DNA from: Mariniblastus sp.
Lineage (GTDB): Bacteria > Planctomycetota > Planctomycetia > Pirellulales > Pirellulaceae
Reading direction: 5' to 3'
Length of the DNA stretch: 38,231 nucleotides
Assembly: GCA_023300235.1 (NCBI GenBank)
Contig: JALZWN010000230.1
Span: 1-38,231 of the forward strand
This document shows, one piece after another, positions 11,706 to 38,231 of the stretch. The notes under the pieces were generated by a model that ran no database searches, was not told the DNA's origin, and saw nothing but the letters and a program-made list of their open reading frames with translations. A program made the translations under genes and the position numbers. The stretch's first letter is position 1; each line of letters opens with the position of its first letter.

Positions 11706-11767
11706 AACCACGGATGAACACCGATCAACACGGATTTTTAAGCGCACATCCGTGTCTATCAGTGGTT
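11706..11767. repeat. Imperfect palindromic repeat between convergent genes
   Basis: AACCAC at 11706-11711 pairs with GTGGTT at 11762-11767, and ACACGGAT at 11728-11735 pairs with ATCCGTGT at 11748-11755. The sequence belongs to the type containing CACGGATGAACAC that recurs in many bacterial spacers. It lies between the 3' ends of the kinase and pheA genes, where a folded transcript could stabilise or end both messages. Confidence 0.5.
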
Positions 11768-11783
11768 ATAAATTTTTCATCCA

Positions 11784-14021
11784 CTAAGACAGCACCCGCT
11801 GCGACGCGGGGAAACTTCCCAAGATCGTCAACTGCGGTTGGTCATTTTCATCACGTTTGCAATGCCCCCTCGCTTCGCCGAGCACTTGCTGAATTTGTTG
11901 ATCATCTCGGTGCCCCACCAGATCCGCAAAGAACGTGTACTCCCAGTTCTGAGTCTGGCTGGGCCGCTTGTCCAAGTGCGTTAAGTTAATCCCCTGCTTC
12001 TTAAACACTTCCAACACGTTTACCAAGCTACCGGGCGCATCATCGGTTCGGAACATGATGGCCGTCTTGTCTTTGCCCGAAGGCAACGTTTGGCGAACGG
12101 ACAAAATCAAAAACCGAGTCATATTATTTTGGCGGTCTTCGATCTTGCGGAACAACGGGGTCAAACCATGAATCTCGCCGGCAAGCGCCGAACCAATCGC
12201 CGCCGCGCCGCAATCTGGATCATCCGCCATCCGAGCTTTCACTCGTTCCATCGCGTTGGCGATACTGCTGGCTGTATGAATTTTGACCTGCGGATACTGA
12301 GTGCTCAACCAACGTCGGCACGCCGCCAACACTGGCGCCGTGCTATAAACTTCGCGGATTTCATCCGGCCGGCAACCGGCCAACAAACAAGAATGAATTT
12401 GCAATTTAACTTCGCCATAGATCGAAACCGAATCGTGGTAATCCATGAACGCGTCCAACGTACCGTTGATCCCGCCAACGGACGTGTTTTCGACCGGAAC
12501 CAAACCATAATCGATCTCCTGATCAACCACCTGACGGAAAATCCCGCGAATCTCTTGCGACGCAGCAAACGTAACACTCGACCCAAACTGACGAACCGCG
12601 GCCACGTGCGAGTGTTCTCCTTCGGGGCCTAAGAACCCAATCCGCAACGGCTTTTCCAAAGCAAAACTACCGCTCATCAACTCGCGGTAAATGCCTTCCA
12701 AGGTTCGATTAGGCATCGGACCGTCGCTCAAATTTTCGATCTTTTTCAATACCGCCACTTCGCGGTGAGGAGCATAAATCGGCACGTCGCTTTGTCGTTT
12801 GAAATTACCAACCTCCACGACCAACTTCGCTCGCTCGTTCACCAAATCAATGATGTCCGCATCGCACTGGTCGATTTCTGATTGGCGCTTTGTATCATCT
12901 TGAAACCGCTGCACCGGATCATTCGCTTGGTAAGTCCCTTTCGGATCGGCGATCGGGTAACTACCCAATACATGCAGCGATTTACAAAACGCTTTCACCT
13001 CTCCCAAAATCATTGCCGTCTTGCCGTCGTCCAAGTGCCCCAAGATATCGACAAAGAACGTGTAGTCCGCGTCCACTCGTTGATTGGGTCGCTTTTCGAT
13101 GTGGCCTAGATTCATCGAGTAGCGTTTGAACACATCCAAGATATCCACCAACGAACCCGGGCGATCATCACACGTGAACATCACGCTCGTTTTGTCATTC
13201 TCCGTCGGCGCGGCGGGGGTTTTAGTCAGGACTAAAAACCGCGTCACATTATTGGGATTGTCTTCGACGCCATCCGCCAGCACGTTCAAATCATATAGCT
13301 GCCCCGCCTTGACCGAACCGATCGCAACCACGCCATCATCGGCAGCCAGTTTGGCAAGCCCCACCGCAGCGGCGGTGCTTTGCGCAGCGATGCGTTTGGC
13401 GTTAGGGAAGTTTGCGCCAATCCATTTGTCACACTGGACGAGTGCTTCAGCTTTGGAATGAATTTCTTTGACGTCTTCAAGTTTGCAATTGCCCAGCAAC
13501 TGAAACGAAATCGATGTGCGAATTTCGCCACCGATTAAAACTTGCCCGAAGTAATCGTTGAAAGAATCCAGCGACTCAATGATCGCCCCGCCAGTGCTGT
13601 TTTCGATCGGCACCAAACCAAATTCGACGTGCCCACGAGCCACCTCTTCAAACACGCCAGAAAGTGCTCGCAGATTTTCGTAATCAACCGAGTCGCCAAA
13701 ATGTTGTTCGGCCGCTTGATGGCTGAATGTGCCTTCGGGGCCCAGGTAACCCACCCGAACGCGACGAGCCAAACCGTACGATGCGGAAAAGATCTCGCGG
13801 TAGATACCTCGCAGCGCCGTGGCTGGAATGATCCCATCGTTCTTGGCGACCACATCATCCAGACGACCCCGCACAGGTTCATCTCCGATGACTGGGGATC
13901 TTCCGAAACGAATTTCATCGATCTCAAGTTCGGCTCGATCGTTCAATCGCTTGACCAAACGACGGTCGACAGCATCAATAGCGACGCGGAGATTTTGAAG
14001 CTGAGGGGCGTTGGCGGACAT
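11784..14021 (-). CDS. pheA: Tandem duplicated chorismate mutase-prephenate dehydratase (double P-protein)
   Basis: 745 residues, twice the usual 360-390 of a bifunctional P-protein. It carries two complete modules. Copy A has chorismate mutase (7-85), prephenate dehydratase (88-268) and ACT (277-355). Copy B has the same at 378-455, 460-642 and 652-737. The reactions are chorismate to prephenate to phenylpyruvate, the committed branch to phenylalanine, in the cytoplasm; ACT domains normally bind phenylalanine for feedback control. Copy B mutase keeps the AroQ residues (R379, R397, K408, R420-E421). Copy A has Arg at the Lys position (R38) and lacks the Arg-Glu pair (VRGRLDD). Copy A dehydratase is canonical (GPEGTFSHQAA, PIENSTGGA, VTRFLVL). 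Copy B has GPEGEHSHVAA in the first motif but keeps PVENTSVGG and MTRFLIL. Both ACT domains have PGSLV and (E/D)KRP in place of the usual GALV/ESRP. The gene is alone, convergent with the kinase gene. Confidence 0.93.
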   Translation of the reverse strand: MSANAPQLQNLRVAIDAVDRRLVKRLNDRAELEIDEIRFGRSPVIGDEPVRGRLDDVVAKNDGIIPATALRGIYREIFSASYGLARRVRVGYLGPEGTFSHQAAEQHFGDSVDYENLRALSGVFEEVARGHVEFGLVPIENSTGGAIIESLDSFNDYFGQVLIGGEIRTSISFQLLGNCKLEDVKEIHSKAEALVQCDKWIGANFPNAKRIAAQSTAAAVGLAKLAADDGVVAIGSVKAGQLYDLNVLADGVEDNPNNVTRFLVLTKTPAAPTENDKTSVMFTCDDRPGSLVDILDVFKRYSMNLGHIEKRPNQRVDADYTFFVDILGHLDDGKTAMILGEVKAFCKSLHVLGSYPIADPKGTYQANDPVQRFQDDTKRQSEIDQCDADIIDLVNERAKLVVEVGNFKRQSDVPIYAPHREVAVLKKIENLSDGPMPNRTLEGIYRELMSGSFALEKPLRIGFLGPEGEHSHVAAVRQFGSSVTFAASQEIRGIFRQVVDQEIDYGLVPVENTSVGGINGTLDAFMDYHDSVSIYGEVKLQIHSCLLAGCRPDEIREVYSTAPVLAACRRWLSTQYPQVKIHTASSIANAMERVKARMADDPDCGAAAIGSALAGEIHGLTPLFRKIEDRQNNMTRFLILSVRQTLPSGKDKTAIMFRTDDAPGSLVNVLEVFKKQGINLTHLDKRPSQTQNWEYTFFADLVGHRDDQQIQQVLGEARGHCKRDENDQPQLTILGSFPASQRVLS

Positions 14022-14337: not shown

Positions 14338-15888
14338 CTAGTGCAGTGAGTAAGCACTGATACCGTGCTCACCCAAGTCCAAGCCTCGTTGTTCTTCTTC
14401 TGCGTCAACTCGCAAGCCCATTGTGAATTTCAATACCAAGCCAACGACCAGGCAGAAAGCAATCGTGAACACGCCAATGGCTGCGATACCCGTCAATTGA
14501 GCAATGATCTGATCCATGCCCTTCTTGACACCAAACAGGCCAACAGCCAACGTTCCCCAGATTCCACAAACCAAGTGAACACTAATCGCACCGACGGGAT
14601 CGTCGATCTTGATCACGCTATCGATGATGATCACAGCAAAGTAAACCAAGACACCAGCGATGGCACCGATGATGATTGCTTCCAGAGGGCTCATCAAGTC
14701 AGCACCGGCAGTGATACCGACCAAGCCAGCCAAGATACCATTAAGTGTCATCGACAGGTCAGGCTTGCTCGTGTGAATCCAAGAAGTGATGGCGGCGACG
14801 AAACCACCAGCAGCAGCGGCCATTGAAGTCGTTACCAAAACCAAAGAAACCAAACCAGGATCGGCACTCAAAACAGATCCGCCGTTGAATCCAAACCAAC
14901 CGAACCAAAGCAAGAATACTCCGATGGCAGCCATTGGCAGATTACTTGGAGACATTGCAACTGATCGGCCTTTGACGTACTTGCCCATACGTGGGCCAAG
15001 CAAAATCGCCATCACCAAAGCTCCCCAGCCTCCTACCGAGTGAACCAAAGTCGAACCCGCGAAGTCATAGAAGCCAGCTCGATCCAACCAGCCAGCGCCC
15101 CATTTCCATGAGCCTGTGATTGGATAACTGATCGAAACAAACAAAGTACAGAAGATCAAGAAAGTCGACAGTTTAACTCGGCCAGCAACTGCACCCGAAA
15201 CAATCGTACAGCAAGTCGCCGCAAACATCGCTTGGAAGAAGAAGTCGGTGAATAGCGTGAAAGCACCATCGGCATCCTCTGACTGTAGATACTGTTGAGT
15301 CGAGTTTGCGTTGAACGCAGCGTTGTCCTCGCCAGGAGCGGCGGCTGACGGTCCTGTCGTCAAAAACCCAAAGCCTGCGAACTTGAAAAATCCACCGTCT
15401 TTGTAAGTCGTTGTTTCCACGCCAGCTGAATCGGTGGCTGTGGTTCCTTTATCAAACCCCGGGTACATCAAATTAAACCCACAGATGCCGTAGGTGATGA
15501 TTCCGATACACACGATCATCGAGTTCTTAAACAAGATGTTGACGGTGTTCTTTGATCGAGTCAGACCACTTTCAAGCGTGGCGAAACCCAAGTGCATGAT
15601 AAAGACCAACATACCAGCGATCATGATCCACAAGTTGTTGATCATGAACTCAGCGGTGATCGCGACAGGTTCAACTGCTGCTGCCGGAGCTGCTTCTTCG
15701 ATTACTTCAGCAGAAGCAGCTTCAGTCGAAGCAGTTTCGTCCGTTGCTGCAACTTCTTCGGTTGCAGTCTCTTCTACTGCAACTGCAGCAGCGTCCTGTG
15801 CGATTGTTACAGCAGGTGCGCTAACGATGGAAAAACTGACAAGGACCATAAGCATCATCACTAGTGGTCGCCATAAAAAATCGTTCAC
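14338..15888 (-). CDS. amt: Ammonium transporter (Amt family) with Ala/Glu-rich N-terminal extension
   Basis: 516 residues from a GTG at 15888, supported by GAGAGG about 8 nt upstream on the minus strand. A signal-peptide-like segment (residues 9-30) is followed by a low-complexity stretch rich in Ala, Glu and Thr (32-74), then the Amt core from about residue 83 with some eleven membrane helices. The twin pore histidines are present in STLVHSVGGWGAL and AISVHLVCGIWGT, and FATLESGLTRSKN and LLWFGWFGFNGGS are typical Amt motifs. The channel admits ammonium across the inner membrane. The periplasmic acidic extension is much longer than in E. coli AmtB. No glnK/PII gene is adjacent. The divergent neighbour resembles the regulatory part of glutamate dehydrogenase, which fits a nitrogen-assimilation role. 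Confidence 0.95.
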   Translation of the reverse strand: MNDFLWRPLVMMLMVLVSFSIVSAPAVTIAQDAAAVAVEETATEEVAATDETASTEAASAEVIEEAAPAAAVEPVAITAEFMINNLWIMIAGMLVFIMHLGFATLESGLTRSKNTVNILFKNSMIVCIGIITYGICGFNLMYPGFDKGTTATDSAGVETTTYKDGGFFKFAGFGFLTTGPSAAAPGEDNAAFNANSTQQYLQSEDADGAFTLFTDFFFQAMFAATCCTIVSGAVAGRVKLSTFLIFCTLFVSISYPITGSWKWGAGWLDRAGFYDFAGSTLVHSVGGWGALVMAILLGPRMGKYVKGRSVAMSPSNLPMAAIGVFLLWFGWFGFNGGSVLSADPGLVSLVLVTTSMAAAAGGFVAAITSWIHTSKPDLSMTLNGILAGLVGITAGADLMSPLEAIIIGAIAGVLVYFAVIIIDSVIKIDDPVGAISVHLVCGIWGTLAVGLFGVKKGMDQIIAQLTGIAAIGVFTIAFCLVVGLVLKFTMGLRVDAEEEQRGLDLGEHGISAYSLH

Positions 15889-27292: not shown

Positions 27293-27503
27293 GGTTCGGA
27301 ACAAAATTAAATAGTGCGACAAAGCATTTTATCAATATCACAAAATATAAATGAAAATTGTTATGAAAGCGTTGGTTGGTTTACTGAGTTTAGCGGGTGT
27401 TTTGGTCGCTCTGTCGACACAAGCCCAGACGGTCGAGCCCGTAGTCGCTCCAGCACAGGCCGAAAGGGGAAAGGTTGCCGTCTCGCAATCGAAACTCAAG
27501 GAC
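27293..27503 (+). repeat. Duplicated 5' region and signal-peptide cassette, copy 1
   Basis: This stretch of about 210 bp (58 bp upstream of the ATG plus about 50 codons) is highly similar to 35181-35390. Both copies contain GACAAAGCAT, AAATATAAATGAAA and a signal peptide ending LVALS-QAQTVEP. Similarity stops abruptly after the CAATCG-A-CTCAA stretch, beyond which the two proteins are unrelated. Confidence 0.85.
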
Positions 27504-29021
27504 AATGACCCTAAGGCCAAAGACCTTGGCGCGATTTGGTTCGTCGGCGATTCGATTACGCAAAGCAATGCAGACGGCGATGCGAAGGGCTCTCCTCGCA
27601 AGTCGCTCTACGAACTGCTGAAGGCCAGCGGCTACTCGTTCACTTACACCGGCCACCACGCAAAAAACACAGACGGGCTTCCTGCAACCGGCACGACGCC
27701 AGCCGATAATCTCTATCATTTTCATACCGGAGTTTCCGGCTACTTGATCGGCAAAACTCCACCAGCGAAAAATTGGGCCGGGATTGCGCCCAATCTTGAC
27801 AAATACTGGGGAAGCGGACGCCTCGCGACCGTGAAGCCATCGATCATTTTGATCATGCTTGGCACCAATGATATTGGACGTGGCTTCGAACTCGATAGTG
27901 CGCCCGATCGGCTCCGAGAAATGCTGGACAAGATCTATGCCTTGCCCAACGTCGGGCAGCCCAAAGTATTCTTGGCCACGATTCCACCTAACCATCGCAA
28001 TGAAGCCGATCGCACCAACGTCATCATCTTTAATGAATCCGTGCCGCGGATTGTGGCGGACTACAAAGCCAAAGGCAAAGCGATCTATTTCGTCGATCAA
28101 TTCAAACCGATCAACGATGCCTACAAGTCAAACATGCGAGGTGACAACCTTCACCCCAATGCAACCGGCAACGACACCATGGCAAAGCAGTGGTTCGCCG
28201 GCATTCAAAAGTCGCTCCAAACAACCGCTTCCGTTGGCACCGATGATGACCAAGATGCATTCCCCGGCGTGAAAACGGATTTCCGTGGGTATGATCGCTA
28301 CGATCGAGTAAAAACAACTAGCGGTTTTATCTCAGTCGTTTGCCCCAAGGTCGCTGCGCCGGGAAAACCTTGGCTTTGGCGAAGTCTATTCTGGGAGGGA
28401 ATCAAACCCTTCAGCAATGCCGACCTCAAGTTGGTCGAGCAGGGATATTATGTCGTGCTTGCCCACGGCAATGTGCATGGGCACCCCGATGGCAATGTCA
28501 ACATCGACGCGGCTTATCAGTTGCTGACTACGGAGTATGGTTTTTCAAAACAATGTTCCATGGCGTCCATGAGTCGAGGCACGTTGTCGCTGTTTACTTG
28601 GGCTTCGGTCAATCCGGAAAAGGTCAACAGTATCTATGTCGATAACGGGGTTTGTAACGTAGATAGCTGGCCCGCTGGCAAATTGGTCCCCGGCAGCGAC
28701 TCGGTCGGCAGTGGTGACGCGCAATCTTGGCAGGGCATGAAGAACGTTTATGGCTTCACCACCGATCAGCAATTGCTTGATGCGAAAGTGAGCCCGATTG
28801 ATAAACTTGAATCGCTGGCCAAAGCCGGGGTACCGATTTTGATGGTCTGCGGAAGCCAGGACACAGCGGTTCCCTACGAGGAAAACGACGCGATCATGGA
28901 ACAGCGATATAAAAAGCTTGGCGGCTCCATCGAAGTGATCATCGAAAACAAAGGCCACACACACGGCATGAAGGACCCGACTCCAGTGCTCGAATTTATC
29001 AAACGAAACACGTCGAATTGA
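27351..29021 (+). CDS. Secreted SGNH esterase fused to an alpha/beta hydrolase
   Basis: 556 residues. After a signal peptide (cleavage near AQA-QT) and a short linker comes an SGNH/GDSL domain (about 58-290): GDSIT with Ser68, LGTND (170-174) and DNLHP with Asp265 and His268, the full catalytic set. The second domain (about 305-556) is an alpha/beta hydrolase with SMSRG (Ser408), GSQD (Asp504) and a late KGHTHG (His536 or His538). The first Gly of the GxSxG elbow is Ser. Both active sites appear intact, so the chain could remove two kinds of ester, such as acetyl groups from polysaccharide. It sits 166 bp upstream of the GH95-like gene on the same strand, as expected for a degradation cluster. 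The first ~50 codons and the upstream region are shared with the GH117-like gene. The substrate is unknown. Confidence 0.87.
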   Translation: MKIVMKALVGLLSLAGVLVALSTQAQTVEPVVAPAQAERGKVAVSQSKLKDNDPKAKDLGAIWFVGDSITQSNADGDAKGSPRKSLYELLKASGYSFTYTGHHAKNTDGLPATGTTPADNLYHFHTGVSGYLIGKTPPAKNWAGIAPNLDKYWGSGRLATVKPSIILIMLGTNDIGRGFELDSAPDRLREMLDKIYALPNVGQPKVFLATIPPNHRNEADRTNVIIFNESVPRIVADYKAKGKAIYFVDQFKPINDAYKSNMRGDNLHPNATGNDTMAKQWFAGIQKSLQTTASVGTDDDQDAFPGVKTDFRGYDRYDRVKTTSGFISVVCPKVAAPGKPWLWRSLFWEGIKPFSNADLKLVEQGYYVVLAHGNVHGHPDGNVNIDAAYQLLTTEYGFSKQCSMASMSRGTLSLFTWASVNPEKVNSIYVDNGVCNVDSWPAGKLVPGSDSVGSGDAQSWQGMKNVYGFTTDQQLLDAKVSPIDKLESLAKAGVPILMVCGSQDTAVPYEENDAIMEQRYKKLGGSIEVIIENKGHTHGMKDPTPVLEFIKRNTSN

Positions 29022-29187
29022 TCCGGCTACGGAGTGGGAACGTTGCAATAAAATACGCATGAGTTTCCAGAAATTTGGAACCGAAAACCATCCTGGCTTT
29101 TTGCAAACACTCTCTCTCAGCAACCTGCGTAGTTTACCAACTTTCGTTGAGTTATTTCCCAAGTCCCCCCCATTTAAGACCTTCGAA

Positions 29188-31539
29188 ATGAACGTAGTGT
29201 TCCAGGCTGTCCGGTGTCTCGTTTTATTGCTTCTGCTGTTTTGCTCTTCACCGCCAGCAGACGCGCAAGTCAGAACCGAAGTTGACTGGGCTGAATTTAT
29301 GGCTCGTCACGATCTGGTGTGGACACGAGCGCCGATGGTATGGCACGACGGCCCATTTCTAGGCAACGGGATGCTGGGGTCAATGCTGCATCAACTCGAT
29401 GACCATCACCTGCGGATCAGTCTGGGACGCGCCGATGTCGAGGACCACAAGACCAAGGGGGCACCTTTTATTTCCCAGTCACGGCTACCCAACGGCTATT
29501 TCACCCTAAAAACTTCTGGGAAAATCACCAGCTTCAGCGGTCGCCTCGACTTGTACAACGCCGAAGCACGCGTGCGGGTCACTACCGATAAGGGGGCGAT
29601 TGAAATTCGCGGCATCGTTCACAGTGATGACATGGTGATCCTATACGACCTGAAGCCCACCGGCGATGAAGTTGCCATGGAACTCGATTTCGTTCCACTC
29701 AAAGCGATCGCGCCGGCTCGTTTGCAAGCCGATCAGGAAGTCGCGGCCAAGGGTGACAAAGCTCACTCAAGCCGAAAAAAATGGGCGTCGACACCATACA
29801 AGTACAATCCTGATCCCGTGCTGGCCAAGGTCGGGCGTTACCAAGTCTCGCGGCAAACCTTGGTCGCCGGTGGCGAAACCGGAACGGCTTGGATTATCAA
29901 GGACCGGCCTGAGGGAGCGAAGCAGTTATTCGTTTCCATCGAACACAGCTTTCCCGAAGCCACGGCAGTCGATGACGCCGTTGAGCACCTGAAGAAGATC
30001 GACGACGAGTCGTTTGAAAGTCTGGTTAAGCGACATCGTGTTTGGTGGCACAACTACTACCCCAAGAGTTTCCTGAGTCTGGATGATACCCGGATGGAAA
30101 GTTTCTATTGGATTCAAGTGTACAAATTCGGCGCGGGCGCTCGTAAAGGCCGAGCGTTCATGGACACGATGGGGCCTTGGATGGTCGAAAACACGGCTTG
30201 GGCGAACGGTTGGTTCAATCTCAATACCCAGCTTTCCTATTGGTTCCTCTCGACCGCAAATCGCTTGGAGGTCGCTGACAGCCTGTTCACAAAACTGGAC
30301 GAAAACCTACCGACTCTGGTGGCCAACATGCCTGCCGCTTACGGCAAACAGTGCGCGGGCATGTCGACGATCGTGCCGCAAACTTTCGTCAGTAAATTCC
30401 CTCGTGGAAAGCTTGGGTTCACTGGCGAATTGCTTTGGACATGCCACGACTATTGGCTGATGCTAGAGCGGACTATGGATTCTGAACGCATCACAAACAA
30501 GTTCTTTCCGCTGCTGAAAAAATCGGTCAATACGTATCTGCATTTCATGGTCGAAGGCAAAGACGGATTGATACATCTGCCGCACACCCGATCTCCTGAA
30601 TACGGAGCGGGAGAAGACTGTAATTTCAATCTCGCATTGTTTCGCTGGGGACTGCGGACGCTTGTTGCGATCGACAAACGATATGGAATCAACGATCCGC
30701 TGCTGCCAAAATGGAAAGACGTGCTCAGTCGGCTGGTTGATTATCCGAAAAACGAAAACGGATTCATGGTCGCCAAAGATTTTCCTTTCGAACAATCGCA
30801 TCGCCACTATTCTCATCTGATGATGATTTATCCATTGTGCGAGATCAATATTGAACAACCCGAAAACCGCGACTTGATCGCCAAGTCAGTCGATCATTGG
30901 ATCAATTATCCCGGCAGAGGAAACGCGGGTTATTCGTGGAGTGGTGCCGCAGCGATGTATGCTTTGCAGGGCGATGGTGAAAAAGCAGCTGGGTACTTGG
31001 ATACATTCTTACGGATGCAGGAAATTTACCCCAACAATCCGGCGATGATCCATCCTACAACGATGTACACCGAAACCAATCGCATCCAGCCGGTAACCGA
31101 AACACCACTGTCGCTGTGTGATTCACTTCAGTTGATGCTGCTGCAAAGTTGGGGCGACAAGATTCGAGTTTTCCCGGGCGTCCCGGCGTCATGGAAGAAC
31201 CTTTGTTTTGATGGAATGCTGGCGGCCGGTGGGTTTAAAGTCAGTGCCGTACGCACCGACGGCAAAACGCAGCTTGTCTCGGTTGAAAGCTTGGCTGGTT
31301 CGCCTTGCATCGTGCAAACAGACGTTGCTGAGATGAATGTTTATATCAATGGCGTCGCAGCCACTGAGCAGCAAATAATGCACAGTGGTGAGGGAGCCTT
31401 TGAACTTAAACTTAACAAAGGTGACGTAGCGGTTCTGACGGTTGGCGAACTGAAGGACGCCGACCTGCGGATCAAGCCGGTCGCCGCCACCAAAGCGAAG
31501 CAAAATTCTTTCGGACTAAATAATGGTGCTTCAAATTAG
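29188..31539 (+). CDS. Secreted GH95-like glycoside hydrolase (divergent active site)
   Basis: 783 residues from the ATG at 29188, chosen because it begins a clean signal peptide (hydrophobic LVLLLLLFCSS, cleavage near ADA-QV). An ATG at 29059 would add 43 residues. The N-terminal beta-domain opens WHDGPFLGNGMLGSML as in GH95. The alpha/alpha-barrel carries NLNTQLSYW with Asn344 and Asn346, SPEYG with Glu471 and HRHYSHLM (538-545). These match the Asn-x-Asn and Glu elements of GH95 alpha-L-fucosidases and alpha-L-galactosidases. The usual HPPFQIDGNFG block with the catalytic Asp is replaced by sequence around PVTETPLSLCDSLQLMLLQSW, so activity or specificity may differ. The C-terminal tail (KLNKGDVAVLTVGELK onward) recurs as an orphan fragment at 34655-34801. 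Confidence 0.85.
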   Translation: MNVVFQAVRCLVLLLLLFCSSPPADAQVRTEVDWAEFMARHDLVWTRAPMVWHDGPFLGNGMLGSMLHQLDDHHLRISLGRADVEDHKTKGAPFISQSRLPNGYFTLKTSGKITSFSGRLDLYNAEARVRVTTDKGAIEIRGIVHSDDMVILYDLKPTGDEVAMELDFVPLKAIAPARLQADQEVAAKGDKAHSSRKKWASTPYKYNPDPVLAKVGRYQVSRQTLVAGGETGTAWIIKDRPEGAKQLFVSIEHSFPEATAVDDAVEHLKKIDDESFESLVKRHRVWWHNYYPKSFLSLDDTRMESFYWIQVYKFGAGARKGRAFMDTMGPWMVENTAWANGWFNLNTQLSYWFLSTANRLEVADSLFTKLDENLPTLVANMPAAYGKQCAGMSTIVPQTFVSKFPRGKLGFTGELLWTCHDYWLMLERTMDSERITNKFFPLLKKSVNTYLHFMVEGKDGLIHLPHTRSPEYGAGEDCNFNLALFRWGLRTLVAIDKRYGINDPLLPKWKDVLSRLVDYPKNENGFMVAKDFPFEQSHRHYSHLMMIYPLCEINIEQPENRDLIAKSVDHWINYPGRGNAGYSWSGAAAMYALQGDGEKAAGYLDTFLRMQEIYPNNPAMIHPTTMYTETNRIQPVTETPLSLCDSLQLMLLQSWGDKIRVFPGVPASWKNLCFDGMLAAGGFKVSAVRTDGKTQLVSVESLAGSPCIVQTDVAEMNVYINGVAATEQQIMHSGEGAFELKLNKGDVAVLTVGELKDADLRIKPVAATKAKQNSFGLNNGASN

Positions 31540-31567
31540 CTTGGAATAACCTTGCTACGGTGAAGGA

Positions 31568-34297
31568 CTACATCAGTTCGACGACCAAACTGTCTCCAGC
31601 GTTGACCGTGGTTGGTTCGACAAACTTCAATACGCACTTGCCGTTCGACTTTTCAAAGTCCACCTGAACTTTAGCACCTGCAAGCGTTACGCTGACTCCC
31701 GCAGCGGTTGTTCCCTCGACCGCATCAAGCGTAAGCTCTTGCAACACTAGCTGGCCGTAACGCAGCTCAATCATCGCCGATTGGTTGCCAGCATCTACTT
31801 TTTGAGAGAAGCTACCCCAGCCTTCGGCCGTCGTAAAAGCGGCTCGAAAATCGCTTTGCTGCATCTTCGGTCCGAAAGCAAGTTTCCCCTGCGGGCCGTC
31901 GTACTGATAGCCGCACATTGCGGTGAACGCGCCGTAGCTAGCCATCGCTCGCGAATAGTGATCGCTACACTCGATTTCGTTGTACGGATTGCGAACTTTT
32001 GGTTGATACCGATCGTTAATCGCTTTGCCGATCGCTAAGCCTTCCTCGATCATGCCGTGCCAGATCATATGCGAGGCGACTTGCCACTCGAACCCCGTCA
32101 TGCACTCGTTGAGATAGCCGGCGTAGCTTTTCTTTCCACTCTTCGGCTCGATTTTGCCGTTCGGGAAACTGCACATCACCAAACCCGCGTCTCCAGCACC
32201 CGCATACCAACGGCCGTTGGTGACCACTTTGCGATACTCGCCGACTTGGGGCGTAAAGTTAAACTTCCATAACGCTTGGAGAGCTTTTTTGATTTTGTCG
32301 GCGGGCAAGATCGGGTCGAGCCCAACATGATGTAACCACGAATCTCCGAGCACTTGGTCGATGTGACAGCCATTGGTCGATCCGTGCTTTTCGGTTTCAA
32401 GATCGCCCGGTTTGTGAATGAAGTAGCCGAACTCTTCGTTCCACAACAGTTTCACCATCGCAGGCATACCTTTTTCGACGATTTCGTCGTAGCGTTTGGC
32501 CACGCCAGGTTTGTCCATTTGCCGGGCCATCATTGCGGAAGCTTTAAGGGCCGCGTGGTAGAGGTTGGTCAGCCAGTGGACTTGTCCGTGCCATGGCTCG
32601 TCGAGCGTGTTGTGCTGAGCACCGACCAGCATTCCATCTTCGTCGGCGTCCCATTTCTTAATCACGTGTTCCATCGAAAGCTCGACGCGTTCCCAGATGT
32701 TTTTTAGAAACGTGTAATCGGTTGTCATTTGACTCTCACGCAACACCCGCAAGATCGTTCCGCAGTTGCCGTCGATCGCATCACCAAATTGCCCTCGTTG
32801 GTAGCGATGGCCGATCGAGCCGTCTTTGTCATTGAACCCAACACCATATTCGATTCGGTCACGATTCTCTCGTTCGATGACAGGAAAAATTCTTGATAGC
32901 CCCTGTGCATAATGCCAAACGTGAGTGCAGTTGCCCGGACAACAGCGGACGCCTTCTTCGAAGTTGTAGATGTCAGTTTCGCTACCCTTGGCAAAGACTC
33001 GCTGTCCCATCTGAGTTTGAATACAATTGAGCGTGACAAAGGTACGCTCAAGGAACCAATGGGGCAGCGTCGAAGCGTACCATGTTTCGGTCCAAGACTG
33101 CGTGGCAAGGAGCAGCTCCTGCTCGCGAGCGGCAAGCTGCTTAGCGGCTTGCACTGCGGTCGGGTACTGTGTGGCATAGTGATTACGCCCAACCTTTGTT
33201 CCGTGAGCGCCAAAGGCAACGCCATACGCGACCAGTGGAAAACTCCAAGACACAACAAACGAAACTGTCTGCGACTCGCCAGGCTTCAACAAAAGCTTGC
33301 GACCCACCGATGTGAAGCCGGGTTGGTTAAAGTCCGCTTTCGCCTTGGTTCCACTTTCAGGTTTCGATGTGGATTCAAAAACGCCTTGAGCCCCCGGTTG
33401 CTTCTTAGCCAGATTGACCAAATCGGGGCGTTGCTCGCCAAGCATTCCGATCGCCGTGGTGCATGTGTCGACGCCCGCTTTCATGGGATTGCCGTTGGCC
33501 GATTCAGCTGAACACTCAATGGCACTCAGGTTTTCGAATTCGTGATAGACGCTGACTTTTTTCCCTTTGGCTTCCTTTAACGTCTTGCGACTGGAAATGT
33601 TCTGATTCCAACCGGCAATCGAGACTTCCTGTTTTTTTGAACTTGTGTTGTTCACGGTGTAACGCATCACGACCGCTGGAAAGCTGGAATCGTCTCGGTT
33701 GAGTGGAATAAACGGAGTCCAAGCTTCAAGATCGACACTAACGGGGCTCGATTCATCTGAGTACGCGACTCGGCCCATCGGGTAGGCGTTGGTGAATTGG
33801 ACGTCTCTGAATCCTTGGGCATCCAGAGTGCGAGTTTCGCCACCCGCCTCAATTGCAAAACCGATATCGTAAGGCGAGACGGACTTGGGCGGCTGCATAT
33901 AGCCGAGCCCTTTGGGATTATGCTGCGCGCCCATGGATGCATCCAGATTCCAAAGCCAAAGCCGACCGTCGCCTGAAAGATAAACTTGCCCGGTGCAGAT
34001 ACCACTTATCGGCATGCCAAGATAATCAAACTCACCTGCCGAGGCACTGAGCGCCTCGCCACGAGCATAGAGACTGGAGATCCACTCTTTGCTGAGCTTC
34101 TTATCCGCGGGAATGAGGTGGACCAACTCGCCAGCTTGGAAGGGCCCCGCCATCACCGAGCTGGGATTGGCGAGTGCCAAAGCTGCAGTCAAACCCGAAG
34201 CCTGAATGAATTGGCGCCGGCCGAGTTGTCCCATCGCTGGGCTACAGCAATTGAAATCGCTACCGTGATCTTCTTCGTTCATATTTTTGATTGACAT
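31568..34297 (-). CDS. Tat-exported GH116/DUF608-like glycoside hydrolase
   Basis: 909 residues from the ATG at 34297 (an ATG at 34282 is an alternative). A twin-arginine signal, GRRQFIQASGLTAAL with Arg27-Arg28, predicts folded export. The N-terminal beta-domain (GISGICTGQ-type glycine strand, LWLWNLDAS) and the DUF608 alpha/alpha-barrel match the GBA2/GH116 family, which cleaves beta-glucosides, beta-xylosides or related substrates. Candidate catalytic residues are Glu448 (NFEEGVRC) and Asp566 (HNTLDEPWHG); HIDQVLGDSW with Asp647 is also conserved-looking. The block CCPGNCTHVWHYAQ is typical of bacterial members. It ends 28 bp from the convergent GH95-like gene, and its promoter faces the 3' orphan fragment. 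The actual glycoside is unknown. It is the only minus-strand gene of the cluster. Confidence 0.86.
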   Translation of the reverse strand: MSIKNMNEEDHGSDFNCCSPAMGQLGRRQFIQASGLTAALALANPSSVMAGPFQAGELVHLIPADKKLSKEWISSLYARGEALSASAGEFDYLGMPISGICTGQVYLSGDGRLWLWNLDASMGAQHNPKGLGYMQPPKSVSPYDIGFAIEAGGETRTLDAQGFRDVQFTNAYPMGRVAYSDESSPVSVDLEAWTPFIPLNRDDSSFPAVVMRYTVNNTSSKKQEVSIAGWNQNISSRKTLKEAKGKKVSVYHEFENLSAIECSAESANGNPMKAGVDTCTTAIGMLGEQRPDLVNLAKKQPGAQGVFESTSKPESGTKAKADFNQPGFTSVGRKLLLKPGESQTVSFVVSWSFPLVAYGVAFGAHGTKVGRNHYATQYPTAVQAAKQLAAREQELLLATQSWTETWYASTLPHWFLERTFVTLNCIQTQMGQRVFAKGSETDIYNFEEGVRCCPGNCTHVWHYAQGLSRIFPVIERENRDRIEYGVGFNDKDGSIGHRYQRGQFGDAIDGNCGTILRVLRESQMTTDYTFLKNIWERVELSMEHVIKKWDADEDGMLVGAQHNTLDEPWHGQVHWLTNLYHAALKASAMMARQMDKPGVAKRYDEIVEKGMPAMVKLLWNEEFGYFIHKPGDLETEKHGSTNGCHIDQVLGDSWLHHVGLDPILPADKIKKALQALWKFNFTPQVGEYRKVVTNGRWYAGAGDAGLVMCSFPNGKIEPKSGKKSYAGYLNECMTGFEWQVASHMIWHGMIEEGLAIGKAINDRYQPKVRNPYNEIECSDHYSRAMASYGAFTAMCGYQYDGPQGKLAFGPKMQQSDFRAAFTTAEGWGSFSQKVDAGNQSAMIELRYGQLVLQELTLDAVEGTTAAGVSVTLAGAKVQVDFEKSNGKCVLKFVEPTTVNAGDSLVVELM

Positions 34298-34654
34298 GCG
34301 TTGGTATACTTTTTCTAAATGCTAAACGGTAAAAGTGCCATAGTTGAGTCTGATTGATAGGTAACTGAATTGATTTTCGAAAAAGTGAGATTTCAAAAGA
34401 TCCCAAACTATTCTCTGACCTTGTCGCGAACAAAAATTCAGCTGAGTCTGATGTTATACAGTATCCAGAATCGAATATCGCTCAGTTAACACTTTTATCT
34501 TAACAGTAGCGAACCGAGGAACCACAGGCCTGGCGTTTCGTCGTGCTTCTGCGATTTCTCATCGGTGGGCTTTGCTTGAGCTTGAAATCTGGTGGGAGTT
34601 CGGCCAGCTGTTGGGGCGTTGACTTGGAAAAATAAAACCTGTCAGGAGCGTCAC
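34298..34654. other. Upstream region of the GH116-like gene
   Basis: 357 bp with no gene seen. It should contain the minus-strand promoter of the GH116-like gene. The right end joins the orphan GH95 tail fragment. Confidence 0.4.
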
Positions 34655-34801
34655 CGCGCCTTTAAATTGAAACTTAACAAAGTTGACGCAGCGGTTCTGG
34701 CCGTTGGCGCACTGAAGAACGCTGATCAAAGTATCAAGCCGGCTGCCGCGACCCAAGACAAACAAAATCCCTTCGGACTAATTAATGGTACGTCAAAGTA
34801 G
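34655..34801 (+). pseudogene. Orphan 3' fragment of a GH95-like gene
   Basis: About 145 bp match the last codons of the GH95-like gene at 31395-31539. The translation FKLKLNKVDAAVLAVGALK ... NPFGLINGTSK parallels FELKLNKGDVAVLTVGELK ... NSFGLNNGASN, including the stop. The matching begins abruptly at GCCTTT, with nothing of the enzyme upstream, and no signal peptide or start is associated. It is the relic of a former tandem copy lost by deletion, perhaps when the neighbouring segment was rearranged. Confidence 0.8.
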
Positions 34802-35180
34802 CGAAGAATAAACGTTGGAACTGTCCTGAAATAAATCCCCGATTGGGGCACGACTAAAAGGATCTCCAGCCCTATGATCGCTGACGGGCTGGAGTACCGA
34901 GCGACATTGTCGCTCAGCTTTCCTAGGTGATAGCGCAAACGTGGAAGTTATTTCGTCACTGTTCCAATGGTTTGGTTAGCTGCTTGGGAATTTACTGCAG
35001 CAGCTTCTTTGGTTGGCTACCTTCTTTGAAAGCACGCCAGCATGACAAAAAACCAAAACCAACCAAGCTCGGACGCTGAAGACAAGCCTGAAAGGTTTGC
35101 ACGATCACTTTTGTTGTCGTGTAGAAAGTGAGATTATTAGTGAGCCTGAGGGTATTTGCGTGGAAAAGTGAAAAATACCC

Positions 35181-35390
35181 GGTTCACCGAAAATAAAATA
35201 ATGTGACAAAGCATCCAATCAATAGCAAAAAATATAAATGAAAGTTGTTATGAAAACGTTGATTAGTTTATTGAGTTTAGCGGGTGCTTTGGTCGCCCTA
35301 TCGGCACAAGCTCAGACGGTCGAGCCCGAAGTCGCTCCGGCACAGGCCAAAATGGGAAAGGTCGTTGTGGCGCAATCGGAGCTCAATGGC
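35181..35390 (+). repeat. Duplicated 5' region and signal-peptide cassette, copy 2
   Basis: Second copy of the segment at 27293-27503, here joined to a GH117-like gene. The shared part covers 57 bp before the ATG and about 50 codons, differing by scattered substitutions that are largely silent or conservative. This indicates one copy seeded the other before divergence. Confidence 0.85.
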
Positions 35391-36248
35391 ATCGGCGTCG
35401 AAAAAGGCGTGATGCGTCGTGACCCAAGTGACATCATCAAGATCGGTGATCTCTATTATGTTTGGTACTCCAAGGGACTGCTTGCGCACGGCTACGATGC
35501 GACCGTTTGGTATGCCACGTCCTTGGACGGTAAAAATTGGGATGAGAAAGGAATGGCGTTGGCAAAAGGTGCCGCAGGAACTTGGGAGGCTGGCAGTGTA
35601 TTCACACCAAACATTCTGGTCGCAGAAAATCGCTACTGGTTGTTCTACACAGCCACCTCGAAACAACACGCCAAAAAAGGCTTTAACCCGGATTCAAAAA
35701 TTGGCATCGCTGTATCGGATTCGCCCAACGGCCCGTGGGAGCGTCTTGATTCCAACCCAGCCCTAAAGAACAGCGACAACGAAGCGGACTTTGACAGCCA
35801 TCTCGTCGACGATGCCTGCTTAATTGTGCGTGATGGAAAATACTGGTTCTATTACAAAGGACGCCAGCAAGGAAAAAGCCCCGCCGAGACTAAGATGGGA
35901 CTCGCCGTTGCAGACCACCCGCAGGGTCCTTATGTGCGACATCCAGAGAATCCTGTGATCCCCGGCAACCACGAAGTCTTGGTTTGGCCTCAGGGCACCG
36001 GCGTCGCAGCCATGATCGGAAAGACCGGTCCGGCGGAGATTACGAATTCGATCTTGTATGCCGCAGATGGGATCCATTTTTCGAAAACGCATGATGTGAA
36101 AAAAGGCCCGGTCGGGGGCGGGGCGTATCGTCCTGAGGCATTTACCGACAGCGGCACTGGCCAGATCCCCACGTGGGGCGTTGGAATCCGCAATGGTGGC
36201 AAGAAGCGGTTGCCCTGCATTCATCGGTTTGATGTCAAGGATCAATGA
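35238..36248 (+). CDS. Secreted GH117-like glycoside hydrolase
   Basis: 336 residues. The signal peptide and linker (1-50) are those of the cassette shared with the esterase. The rest is a five-bladed propeller of the GH117/GH43 type. Bladed motifs include MRRDPSDIIKIGDLYYVWY with candidate base Asp62, GTWEAGSVFTPNILVAENRYWLFY, LVDDACLIVRDGKYWFYYKG with Asp191-Asp192, and PGNHEVLVWPQG with His245-Glu246, resembling the His/Glu pair discussed for GH117. Such enzymes release 3,6-anhydro-galactose or related sugars from the ends of red-algal oligosaccharides. The family assignment rests on motif pattern only, and GH43 or GH32 relatives are alternatives. It lies between the GH95 fragments and the sulfatase, all on the same strand. 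Confidence 0.75.
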   Translation: MKVVMKTLISLLSLAGALVALSAQAQTVEPEVAPAQAKMGKVVVAQSELNGIGVEKGVMRRDPSDIIKIGDLYYVWYSKGLLAHGYDATVWYATSLDGKNWDEKGMALAKGAAGTWEAGSVFTPNILVAENRYWLFYTATSKQHAKKGFNPDSKIGIAVSDSPNGPWERLDSNPALKNSDNEADFDSHLVDDACLIVRDGKYWFYYKGRQQGKSPAETKMGLAVADHPQGPYVRHPENPVIPGNHEVLVWPQGTGVAAMIGKTGPAEITNSILYAADGIHFSKTHDVKKGPVGGGAYRPEAFTDSGTGQIPTWGVGIRNGGKKRLPCIHRFDVKDQ

Positions 36249-36309
36249 GCCACGCGGTAATCGTCCAATGCTGCTTACTTGAGATTTTGAATTTTGGCGA
36301 GACGAGTTT

Positions 36310-36340
36310 GGAGTGCCGGCTTTCGTCGGAATCCAGGCTA
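36310..36340. repeat. Fragment of a REP-like repeat
   Basis: GGAGTGCCGGCTTTCGTCGG followed by AATCC resembles dispersed palindromes found in many proteobacterial and planctomycetal spacers, whose spurious translation reads WIPTKAGTP. It lies between the GH117-like gene and the fucosidase remnant. No complete inverted partner was found. Confidence 0.3.
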
Positions 36341-36429
36341 GAGCTCGACGCAAATCAGACTAAAGGCGATACTACAAACGGACTTTCATGGATCGCAACG
36401 TTTAAAGGATGGATTAGCCTTAGAGATCA

Positions 36430-36927
36430 TTGATTTCTGGGCTCGGTTCATGGAAGGCACATGAGAACATCGGTTTGCTGTTAAAAAAGTCCACTCGCAA
36501 CATCTTTTTTGACACGCATCCTCCATTTCAAATCGACGGCAACTTCGACGCGAGTGCCGGCAAGACTGAAATGTTAATTCAATCTCATGCCGAACAAATT
36601 GATCTACTCCATGCGTTGATGAAAGCTTGGCCCAATAGGTCCGTCAAAGGGCTTTGTCCAAGAGGCGGTTTCGAGGTCGATACGGAATCGGATTCGGAAT
36701 CGGAAAACGGCGTGCTCACCGCGGCTACGTTGCGATCGAAGTTGGGCAACACCTGCACCGTTCATTTCGGCGATAAAACGAAAACGCTCAACACAGATGT
36801 CAATGGACGTTGCGATCTGATGCCGCCGTTAGAAACGGCGTTGAAGATCTATGACAAACTACATCCTTTAGAACCGTCGTTCACTGAGCCTCGAGCTCGT
36901 AGCCCTCGTGAGAAAGTTGCACAATGA
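36430..36927 (+). pseudogene. C-terminal remnant of a GH95 alpha-L-fucosidase
   Basis: About 165 codons remain. They include the classic GH95 block FFDTHPPFQIDGNF, then TEMLIQSHAEQIDLLHALMKAWPNRSVKGL and RGGFEVD. Normal GH95 genes are about 750-800 codons, and no N-terminal two thirds is present upstream in any frame. Substitutions at usually invariant places (GNFD for GNFG, LLHALM for LLPALP, GLCPRGG for GLRARGG) suggest decay. The segment before DTHPP (WKAHENIGLLLKKST) is still recognisable. The stop TGA overlaps the sulfatase ATG as ATGA (36924-36927), so an operon junction has survived the loss of the rest. Confidence 0.8.
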
Positions 36928-38231
36928 ATCGCATTGTTTATCTATTGATGATTGGCGTTTTGAGCGCCGGTGTTTCCTTTTCCTATGAGGAAGCTTCGGC
37001 GAACGATCAAAATCCAAGTGCCACGGCCGAACGTCCCAATTTCATTGTCATCTTCACCGATGACCAAGGCTATCAGGACTTGGGCTGTTTCGGTTCCCCG
37101 GACATTAAGACGCCGCGTATCGACCAAATGGCCAAAGAGGGGATGAAGTTCACCAGCTTTTATGCACAGACCGTGTGCGGTCCCTCGCGTGGGGCGCTGA
37201 TGACGGGTTGCTATCCCATTCGGTTTGCTCGGCACGCCGATCCCGATTCGATTCACCCGGAAATGCACCTGGACGAAATGACCATCGCCGAAGTGCTGAA
37301 GCAGCAAGGCTATGCGACCGCGGCATTCGGCAAGTGGGATTTGGCCGGGCACAGCCAGACGGCTTATAAGCCTGAACTGCTACCGACGAATCAGGGCTTT
37401 GATGTTCATCTTGGAACGCCCGGCAGTAATGACCAGTTTGCCAATCTGATCCGAGGCACAAAAATGGTGAAGCGGAGGTGCGACATGTCCACGCTAACGA
37501 AACGCTACACCGACGAAGCAATCGGCTTTATCAACAGCAGCAAGGATACTCCGTTTTTCATCTATCTCGCGCACTCGATGCCACACACCAAACTTGCGGC
37601 ATCGGCGGATTTCAAAGGAACGTCGAAAGGCGGCCTGTATGGCGATGTGATCGAAGAATTGGACTTCAACGTCGGTCGCGTGCTCGACACCGTGAAAGAG
37701 CTGGGGCTCGACGAAAACACCTACATTATTTTCACCAGCGATAACGGTCCCTGGTGGATTAAGAAAAAACATGCCGGGCATTGTCAGCCGTTACGCGGCG
37801 CGAAGACGTCGTGTTGGGAGGGCGGGTTGCGTGTGCCATGCATCATGCGTGCACCGGGTAAGATTGCTGCCGGCACCGAATGCGATGCCGTGGCGGCCAC
37901 GATCGACCTGCTGCCGACGCTCGCCCAACTCGCTGGCGGGGCAGCGCCTGCTGACCGAGTGATTGACGGAGTGGATCTTTCCGCTCTGATGCATGGTAAG
38001 TCCGATGATCTTGATCGGAGTTTCTTTTACTATCAGCACGACTGCCTGCGGGCAGTGCGTTCGGGGAAGTGGAAACTGTGGTTGCCACATACCGAACCGG
38101 TGAACGTCAGCATTGCAACGCATTGGCGCAGCCATATTCAACCAGCCGATCAGATCCGCCTCGAAACCGTCCGGCTGTATGACTTGGATGCCGATATCAG
38201 CGAAACCACTGATGTATCAGACCAGCATCCC
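36924..38231 (+). CDS. Type I sulfatase, incomplete at window end
   Basis: The ATG at 36924 opens a signal peptide (VYLLMIGVLSAGVSFS) and a sulfatase chain open to the window end, 436 codons with no stop. The core is intact: NFIVIFTDDQGYQDLG with metal ligands Asp46-Asp47; CGPSRGALMTG with Cys85, the residue converted to formylglycine; and FTSDNG with Asp273-Asn274. The Cys-x-Pro-Ser-Arg signature identifies an S1 family enzyme needing a formylglycine-generating enzyme. It should desulfate polysaccharide in the periplasm, alongside the esterase, GH95-like, GH116-like and GH117-like proteins. The position of sulfate cleaved cannot be read from sequence. The start overlaps the fucosidase remnant by four bases. 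Confidence 0.95.
   Translation, partial: MNRIVYLLMIGVLSAGVSFSYEEASANDQNPSATAERPNFIVIFTDDQGYQDLGCFGSPDIKTPRIDQMAKEGMKFTSFYAQTVCGPSRGALMTGCYPIRFARHADPDSIHPEMHLDEMTIAEVLKQQGYATAAFGKWDLAGHSQTAYKPELLPTNQGFDVHLGTPGSNDQFANLIRGTKMVKRRCDMSTLTKRYTDEAIGFINSSKDTPFFIYLAHSMPHTKLAASADFKGTSKGGLYGDVIEELDFNVGRVLDTVKELGLDENTYIIFTSDNGPWWIKKKHAGHCQPLRGAKTSCWEGGLRVPCIMRAPGKIAAGTECDAVAATIDLLPTLAQLAGGAAPADRVIDGVDLSALMHGKSDDLDRSFFYYQHDCLRAVRSGKWKLWLPHTEPVNVSIATHWRSHIQPADQIRLETVRLYDLDADISETTDVSDQHP

Follow-up and report, generated by a model that had tools for sequence, protein, structure and literature searches.

A P-protein with every domain twice

Is a P-protein that carries each of its domains twice to be read as two enzymes joined end to end, or as one enzyme whose halves complete each other? 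This question is raised by a gene of Mariniblastus sp. (Pirellulaceae, Planctomycetota; GenBank assembly GCA_023300235.1, the source genome), which lies in the 38,231-nucleotide stretch of DNA analysed here (contig JALZWN010000230.1, positions 1 to 38,231, hereafter the window). Its minus-strand open reading frame (ORF) starts with an ATG at 14021 and comprises 745 codons without an internal stop. A Pfam domain search with the 745-residue product, a check proposed in the initial annotation of this DNA, found the CM_2, PDT and ACT stretches twice each, in P-protein order. We refer to this gene as the double, to its two successive modules of chorismate mutase (CM), prephenate dehydratase (PDT) and ACT domains as copies (or halves) A and B, and to genes with one such module as singles. 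The initial annotation had described one uninterrupted frame in which each P-protein motif occurs twice, and all four motif pairs were indeed read (copy A/copy B: GPEGTFSH/GPEGEHSH, VPIEN/VPVEN, TRFL/TRFL and PGSLV/PGSLV).

The double was detected in 12 of the 28 genomes surveyed in the genus; a single CM-PDT-ACT gene was found in 14 and no match in the remaining two. From the residues kept and lost by each half, we consider it likely that the double arose by in-frame tandem duplication and is a covalent pseudo-dimer, its halves forming one composite mutase site between them. Neither half looks like a mutase on its own, and the two probably share one site.

Mutase residues are divided between the halves

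Residues are numbered after E. coli PheA (NC_000913.3), which also served as alignment reference, and the doubles were compared with 19 near singles that a whole-protein search had retrieved, namely the 14 of the genus and the five nearest singles of the family. The AroQ residue Arg11 is reported to be donated by the other monomer in EcCM (PMC5526877), and Arg11' is described as catalytically important (PMC12329711). It is present in all 12 A copies and in none of the 12 B copies, which have Glu (nine), Gln (one), Gly (one) or Asn (one) instead; it is also present in 14/14 genus singles and in 5/5 of the nearest family singles. No gap interrupts positions 11 to 28 in the 12 copy B sequences, so that this loss does not depend on how they were aligned.

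Other catalytic positions display the opposite distribution. Lys39 is kept in 1/12 A copies versus 12/12 B copies and 19/19 near singles, Arg51 in 0/12 versus 12/12 and 19/19, and Ser84 in 3/12 versus 12/12, while residue 88 is Gly or Ala in all 12 A copies and Glu in all 12 B copies and all 19 near singles. Glu52 occurs in every B copy, and Arg28 in every copy of both kinds. The full mutase set is thus found in 19/19 near singles, and the AroQ catalytic set of one protomer (Arg11', Arg28, Lys39, Arg51, Glu52 and Gln/Glu88) is complete in neither half of the double. In the window, copy A holds Arg11 and Arg28, and copy B holds every residue of the set except Arg11, so that by sequence the two copies together contain one complete mutase residue set.

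The initial annotation was right that copy A has lost the AroQ Lys and Arg-Glu (G40 and P49-V50 in the window). Its statement that copy B keeps all mutase residues has to be withdrawn, as Q380 occupies the Arg11 position in the window and Arg is absent there from all 12 doubles. Likewise, its proposal that each half kept one activity fails for the mutase, Arg11 being found only in copy A, and fits only the dehydratase, which is intact in copy A and suspect in copy B. Since copy B has lost Arg11 and copy A has kept it, the mutase most likely belongs to the pair rather than to either half, and a composite site drawing on both copies appears highly probable.

The near singles conserve 35 mutase columns (in 18 or all 19 of them), of which copy A has lost 17 and copy B four (a lost column being kept in at most 3 of the 12 doubles); these four are Arg11, L21, L87 and Q89, and only Arg11 is catalytic. 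In singles retrieved by a scan of GTDB contigs, Arg11 is present in 66/66 readable sequences and Lys39 in 68/68. However, the scan patterns PIYAPHRE (73/80 loci) and NW[DE]YTFF (36/80) select for Arg51-Glu52 and partly for Trp338, and the GTDB singles lean to intact mutases because the patterns contain Arg51-Glu52. With this same bias, 28 columns are near-invariant in these singles, of which copy A has lost 11 and copy B only Arg11. Arg11 lies in the N-terminal part of helix 1, and there the GTDB-single consensus is matched in 6/6 scored columns by copy A and in 62% on average by copy B. These singles number 68 of 69, one with a broken frame (L177) having been dropped; two (L170 and L192) have no position 11, and three trimmed at a stop (L155, L158 and L174) were counted among the singles and do not figure in the fold alignments (57 rows).

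Distribution and origin

A survey of planctomycetes for this architecture, suggested in the initial annotation, located it, in the genomes drawn, in this genus only. In a draw of 396 genomes from the order, the only doubles among the matches listed were six, all from this genus, and in a draw of 392 genomes from the phylum no double besides the window's own was found at E < 1e-110, the other five matches being single frames of 425-470 amino acids; the two draws overlap, and a very diverged double could escape both. Two of the long frames of the order draw (L049 and L050) were read and are single modules, others in the draw measuring 549-694 amino acids. The GTDB contig scan yielded 11 doubles among 80 of 215 confirmed loci, four of them labelled Mariniblastus and the others Pirellulaceae, Planctomycetaceae or Planctomycetota; they probably overlap the 12 doubles of the genus survey, and the two counts are kept separate.

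An assembly artefact is ruled out because the same arrangement recurs in 12 genomes and the halves fall into two separate clades. Two separate genes are likewise ruled out by the one uninterrupted frame and its recurrence in these genomes. In the PDT-ACT tree, the A halves all group together (100/100), as do the B halves (99/99); for their attachment to the singles, the approximately unbiased test does not choose between A and B as one clade (p-AU 0.30) and B joined with the near singles (0.28). The genus singles are closest to copy B (54-60% identity), and the window's double shares 62-63% identity with the others. In an RpoB tree built from 27 genomes of the 28 in the genus (G013, a fragment, was left out, and the frame of G015 is broken), a single branch separates off all doubles in 64% of bootstraps, a weak value for the window; the 11 doubles without the window group firmly (99/97). 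Tex was dropped as a species marker because of paralogues.

The simplest history is one in-frame tandem duplication followed by vertical descent, the source being presumably the single CM-PDT-ACT gene of the genus. The internal duplication with complementary loss proposed in the initial annotation is in this respect supported, the pattern being kept in all 12 doubles examined.

One genome (G014; L027 and L083) may be a mixed bin, as its RpoB almost matches that of G006 and its P-protein falls with those of G025 and G015.

Dehydratase and ACT domains

Copy A has canonical dehydratase motifs, as had been annotated, and half A alone passes the NCBIfam dehydratase equivalog PRK11898 (225 versus a cut-off of 219 bits). 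The GEHSH reported for copy B is also real: position 114 is Glu in 12/12 doubles (GE[F/H]SH; E469 in the window versus T98 in copy A), and Ser or Thr in 68/68 GTDB, 60/60 order and 14/14 genus singles (Thr in the genus). An acidic residue at this position, if it faces the dicarboxylate substrate, would be hard to square with normal activity, and we regard copy B as rather likely to be inactive as a dehydratase.

The alternative is that copy B is still active, maybe with an altered preference, the exchange of Ser/Thr for Glu being a modification and not a loss. It keeps an appreciable though smaller chance: copy B retains TRF and Glu159 in 12/12 doubles and Asn160 and Gln215 in 11/12, under strong purifying selection, and substrate binding and catalysis are reported to depend critically on TRF (PMC10845154). 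Nevertheless, Glu114 is seen in none of the 68 GTDB and none of the 60 order singles, the window's copy B is the one that has also lost Gln215 (A567), and half B falls below the PRK11898 cut-off (192.6 versus 219 bits).

The ACT domains differ as well. Asn-Trp at positions 337-338 (Pro-Trp in E. coli) is found in 19/19 near singles, 12/12 B copies and 0/12 A copies, and the ACT domain of copy A has Cys in place of Thr304. Trp338 presumably matters for feedback in E. coli. The phenylalanine (Phe)-binding motifs GALV/ESRP read GSLV/EKRP in copy A and GSLV/DKRP in copy B of the window, the Lys of the second motif being found also in 68 singles. It is doubtful that the ACT asymmetry is functional, and the suggestion that Phe feedback might be sensed mainly through the ACT domain of copy B is the weakest of our conclusions. 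A full division of roles over all three domain pairs, making the protein an obligate covalent heterodimer (composite mutase, dehydratase in copy A, Phe sensing in copy B), seems unlikely. If it exists, catalysis and feedback would have to cross from one half to the other, with copy B's dehydratase fold as a pseudoenzyme partner.

Arrangement of the halves

Structure prediction for the 745-residue protein, another check named in the initial annotation, was run with AlphaFold2 on 57 aligned rows and gave a mean predicted local distance difference test (pLDDT) of 85.5 and a predicted template modelling score (pTM) of 0.73 for the whole chain; helix 1 is long in both mutase domains (5-40 and 376-409). 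Half A alone reached a pTM of 0.71. Since two unplaced halves should score well below one half, a defined arrangement of the halves within the predicted chain is suggested. Foldseek ranks 16 entries of dehydratase type first, one of which bears the title putative chorismate mutase; AroQ mutase domain entries are absent from the 50 matches listed.

We propose that a PheA-type homodimer was made covalent by in-frame tandem duplication and then became asymmetric. The two mutase domains would pack as the usual intertwined AroQ dimer, with a working site that takes its Arg from copy A and the equivalents of Arg28, Lys39, Arg51, Glu52, Ser84 and Glu88 from copy B; the second site of the pair would be dead. 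Dehydratase activity would reside in copy A, and the dehydratase fold of copy B may have been kept as a dimer partner or as a ligand-binding regulator.

Formation of the composite site within one chain is the simpler reading of the residue pattern and the one that we moderately favour. In a domain-swapped oligomer, the site could instead be formed between copy A of one chain and copy B of another. The residue pattern fits both topologies equally, and single P-proteins must pair between chains. On the other hand, fusion makes the partner on the same chain the nearest one, and the whole-chain pTM suggests, without being decisive, a defined within-chain arrangement; a site between chains is accordingly possible but has the smaller probability.

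It is considerably less probable that each half is self-sufficient, with a complete mutase in copy B and a complete dehydratase in copy A, as the initial annotation had it. The scores of the halves taken alone agree with such a division: half B passes CM_2 (72.4 bits, cut-off 27) and half A passes PRK11898, and each fails the other model, half A scoring below the cut-off for CM_2 (21.2 bits) as well as for ACT (25.1 bits). The equivalog PRK10622 gives 312.6 bits for the whole chain, against a cut-off of 577. Yet copy B has no Arg11 in any of the 12 doubles, versus 19/19 near singles, and a dimer of two B copies would miss this residue in both sites.

Other mutases and selection

The unrelated mutase AroH was not found in any of the 12 doubles, and no further CM_2 domain above the cut-off was found in the eight that were searched; the double should therefore be the sole source of prephenate. 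A whole-genome search of the source genome with the double protein matches this locus only. The source genome also has a separate prephenate dehydrogenase, which needs prephenate as well; a search for this family in 12 genomes failed to find it in 4.

Two genus genomes (G010 and G012) have no P-protein match, no CM_2 and no AroH, and may be auxotrophs or reflect assembly gaps.

Sixty singles of the order Pirellulales from outside the genus served as controls. A degenerate mutase accompanies AroH in 36 of them and a complete mutase occurs without AroH in 17; seven are discordant (degenerate without AroH, five; complete with AroH, two; Fisher 9e-9 overall). Degenerate mutase domains have kept Arg11 in only 7/41 cases, and in 6/36 when Lys39 and Arg51 are both gone, compared with 12/12 in copy A of the doubles, which belong to one lineage. 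The controls were picked from the 362 genomes with a match among the 396 of the order, and the share of degenerate mutases (41/60) is biased upward because 20 were chosen for an unmatched mutase part. The pattern of copies A and B is not mere decay, to judge from these degenerate singles and from the absence of AroH.

The combination of a degenerate mutase with a separate AroH is found in many singles of the order (L031, L032, L044-L048 and many of L213-L252). The genomes with a degenerate mutase and no AroH are G339, G034, G028, G354 and G063 (L225, L236, L241, L246 and L251), possibly incomplete drafts.

Ratios of non-synonymous to synonymous substitution rates (dN/dS) were obtained for 23 close pairs drawn from eight close doubles, the window's copy being excluded as saturated. 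They are highest for mutase A (0.083), followed by mutase B (0.027), and lie at 0.020-0.022 in the remaining four domains (singles, from three pairs only: 0.050-0.078). All six domains are under purifying selection, with mutase A the least constrained. That both mutase domains are dead scaffolds and an undetected mutase converts chorismate is very improbable: degenerate P-protein mutases are frequent among the order singles (in that biased sample) and the source assembly is in draft form (311 contigs, 94.8% completeness), but none of the 12 doubles has AroH, copy B keeps every catalytic residue except Arg11 in all 12, unlike dead domains, and mutase B has the low dN/dS just given.

Several observations nevertheless weigh against a pseudo-dimer with divided roles. 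Within the mutase, the Glu52 column of copy A is still Glu in 9/12 doubles, in a poorly aligned loop, one double (L006) retains Lys at the Lys39 column of copy A, and half B falls narrowly under the P-protein mutase model TIGR01807 (66.9 versus 69.55 bits). CM_2 matches below the cut-off exist in G007 (two), G016 (one) and the source genome (one, outside the double, of 12 bits at E 0.9). Moreover, 5/60 controls, all drafts, have a degenerate mutase without AroH, so that the absence of AroH is no proof of an active mutase elsewhere. The 12 doubles are one lineage, and their residue pattern is therefore one event kept and not 12 independent ones. As for the dehydratase, copy B has TRF and a dN/dS equal to that of copy A (0.020 versus 0.022) and may be active; in the alignment, the solved dehydratase of Chlorobium tepidum (2qmx) has Ala at position 114, where the hydroxyl is thus dispensable. 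Finally, Trp338 is missing in 55/60 order singles and, by alignment, in the Phe-inhibited C. tepidum enzyme, so its loss from copy A need not end Phe sensing.

Comparison with known systems

The double has the same domains in the same order as E. coli PheA (AroQ-alpha, PDT and ACT), to which each half is clearly homologous, and all the catalytic residues are present within its whole chain. It is unlike PheA in having two modules, in the splitting of the mutase residues and in having an unaltered dehydratase motif in one half only. The single CM-PDT-ACT proteins of the genus are direct homologues, but have one module, with the full mutase set and Thr114 in 14/14. What sets the double apart from ordinary P-proteins is its architecture and the location of its residues, not its chemistry. 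No description of a doubled P-protein was found in the open-licence literature, only part of the search having been aimed at doubled or fused mutases or fused homodimers.

The locus can be viewed as a natural experiment in which a symmetric dimer was fused and the second copy of the shared site was free to decay, each half keeping only the residues needed by the site that remains; the 14 genomes of the same genus with a single gene provide the comparison state. If this is true, the double is a natural case of a symmetric enzyme made lopsided. Confirmation would also make it a bacterial counterpart, reached by a separate route, of the yeast mutase with its fused subunit and one site. The AroQ fold of the yeast-type AroQ-beta enzyme Aro7 probably stems from a duplicated EcCM-like unit, and its fused subunits with one site each form an allosteric dimer; it serves here as an analogy only. 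Yeast-type AroQ-beta mutases are described with one catalytic centre per subunit (PMC10520331); Aro7 is, unlike the double, eukaryotic and without a dehydratase. Exported fusions of CM with cyclohexadienyl dehydratase (CDT) resemble the double in joining a mutase and a dehydratase in one chain (PMC10520331), but consist of one mutase and one CDT, are exported and have no doubled module. Long-form tRNase Z (ELAC2) is alike in logic only, being unrelated in enzyme, fold and pathway: of the two related lactamase-type domains in its chain, the N-terminal one is described as carrying the flexible tRNA-binding arm and the other as the endonuclease (PMC11996679). The composite site would be directly testable by one arginine change in the mutase-deficient E. 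coli selection strain described in PMC7762937.

Features of the locus and its neighbourhood

Table 1. Features of the double gene in the window, with residue numbers of the 745-residue product.
Feature	Position	Strand	Evidence
Whole double gene, CM-PDT-ACT-CM-PDT-ACT, 745 aa	11784..14021	-	ORF, Pfam, genome search
Copy A chorismate mutase domain, residues 8-84	13770..14000	-	Pfam, active-site alignment
Copy A R12 = E. coli Arg11 (donated in trans)	13986..13988	-	Alignment; kept in 12/12 doubles
Copy A G40 at E. coli Lys39 position	13902..13904	-	Alignment
Copy A P49-V50 at E. coli Arg51-Glu52 position	13872..13877	-	Alignment
Copy A prephenate dehydratase domain, residues 88-268	13218..13760	-	Pfam, NCBIfam
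Copy A T98 of GTFSH	13728..13730	-	Alignment
Copy A TRF catalytic triad, residues 260-262	13236..13244	-	Alignment
Copy A ACT domain, residues 276-358; A318 at E. coli Trp338	12948..13196	-	Pfam, alignment
Copy B chorismate mutase domain, residues 378-457	12651..12890	-	Pfam
Copy B Q380 at trans-Arg11 position	12882..12884	-	Alignment; Arg in 0/12 doubles
Copy B K408 = E. coli Lys39	12798..12800	-	Alignment; kept in 12/12
Copy B R420-E421 = E. coli Arg51-Glu52	12759..12764	-	Alignment; kept in 12/12
Copy B prephenate dehydratase domain, residues 460-644	12090..12644	-	Pfam, NCBIfam
Copy B E469 in GEHSH	12615..12617	-	Alignment; Glu in 12/12 doubles
Copy B TRF, residues 635-637, intact	12111..12119	-	Alignment
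Copy B ACT domain, residues 652-740; W693 = E. coli Trp338	11802..12068	-	Pfam, alignment

An ammonium transporter family gene lies directly upstream of the double gene (window 14338-15888, minus strand). A gene of this family stands beside 9/11 GTDB doubles (of the two without it, L128 offers hardly any flank) and near 0/13 singles searched in the same way as the doubles.

Just 3' of the stop of the double gene (window 11706-11767), inverted copies of an ATCCGTGTNNATCNGTGGTT repeat occur within a segment predicted to fold into a strong hairpin (z -4.3); the repeat has four matches in the window at up to three mismatches versus 0.15 expected. Farther along, window 27351-38231 holds a carbohydrate-active gene group composed of a GDSL lipase, GH95, GH116, a GH43-like gene and a sulfatase.

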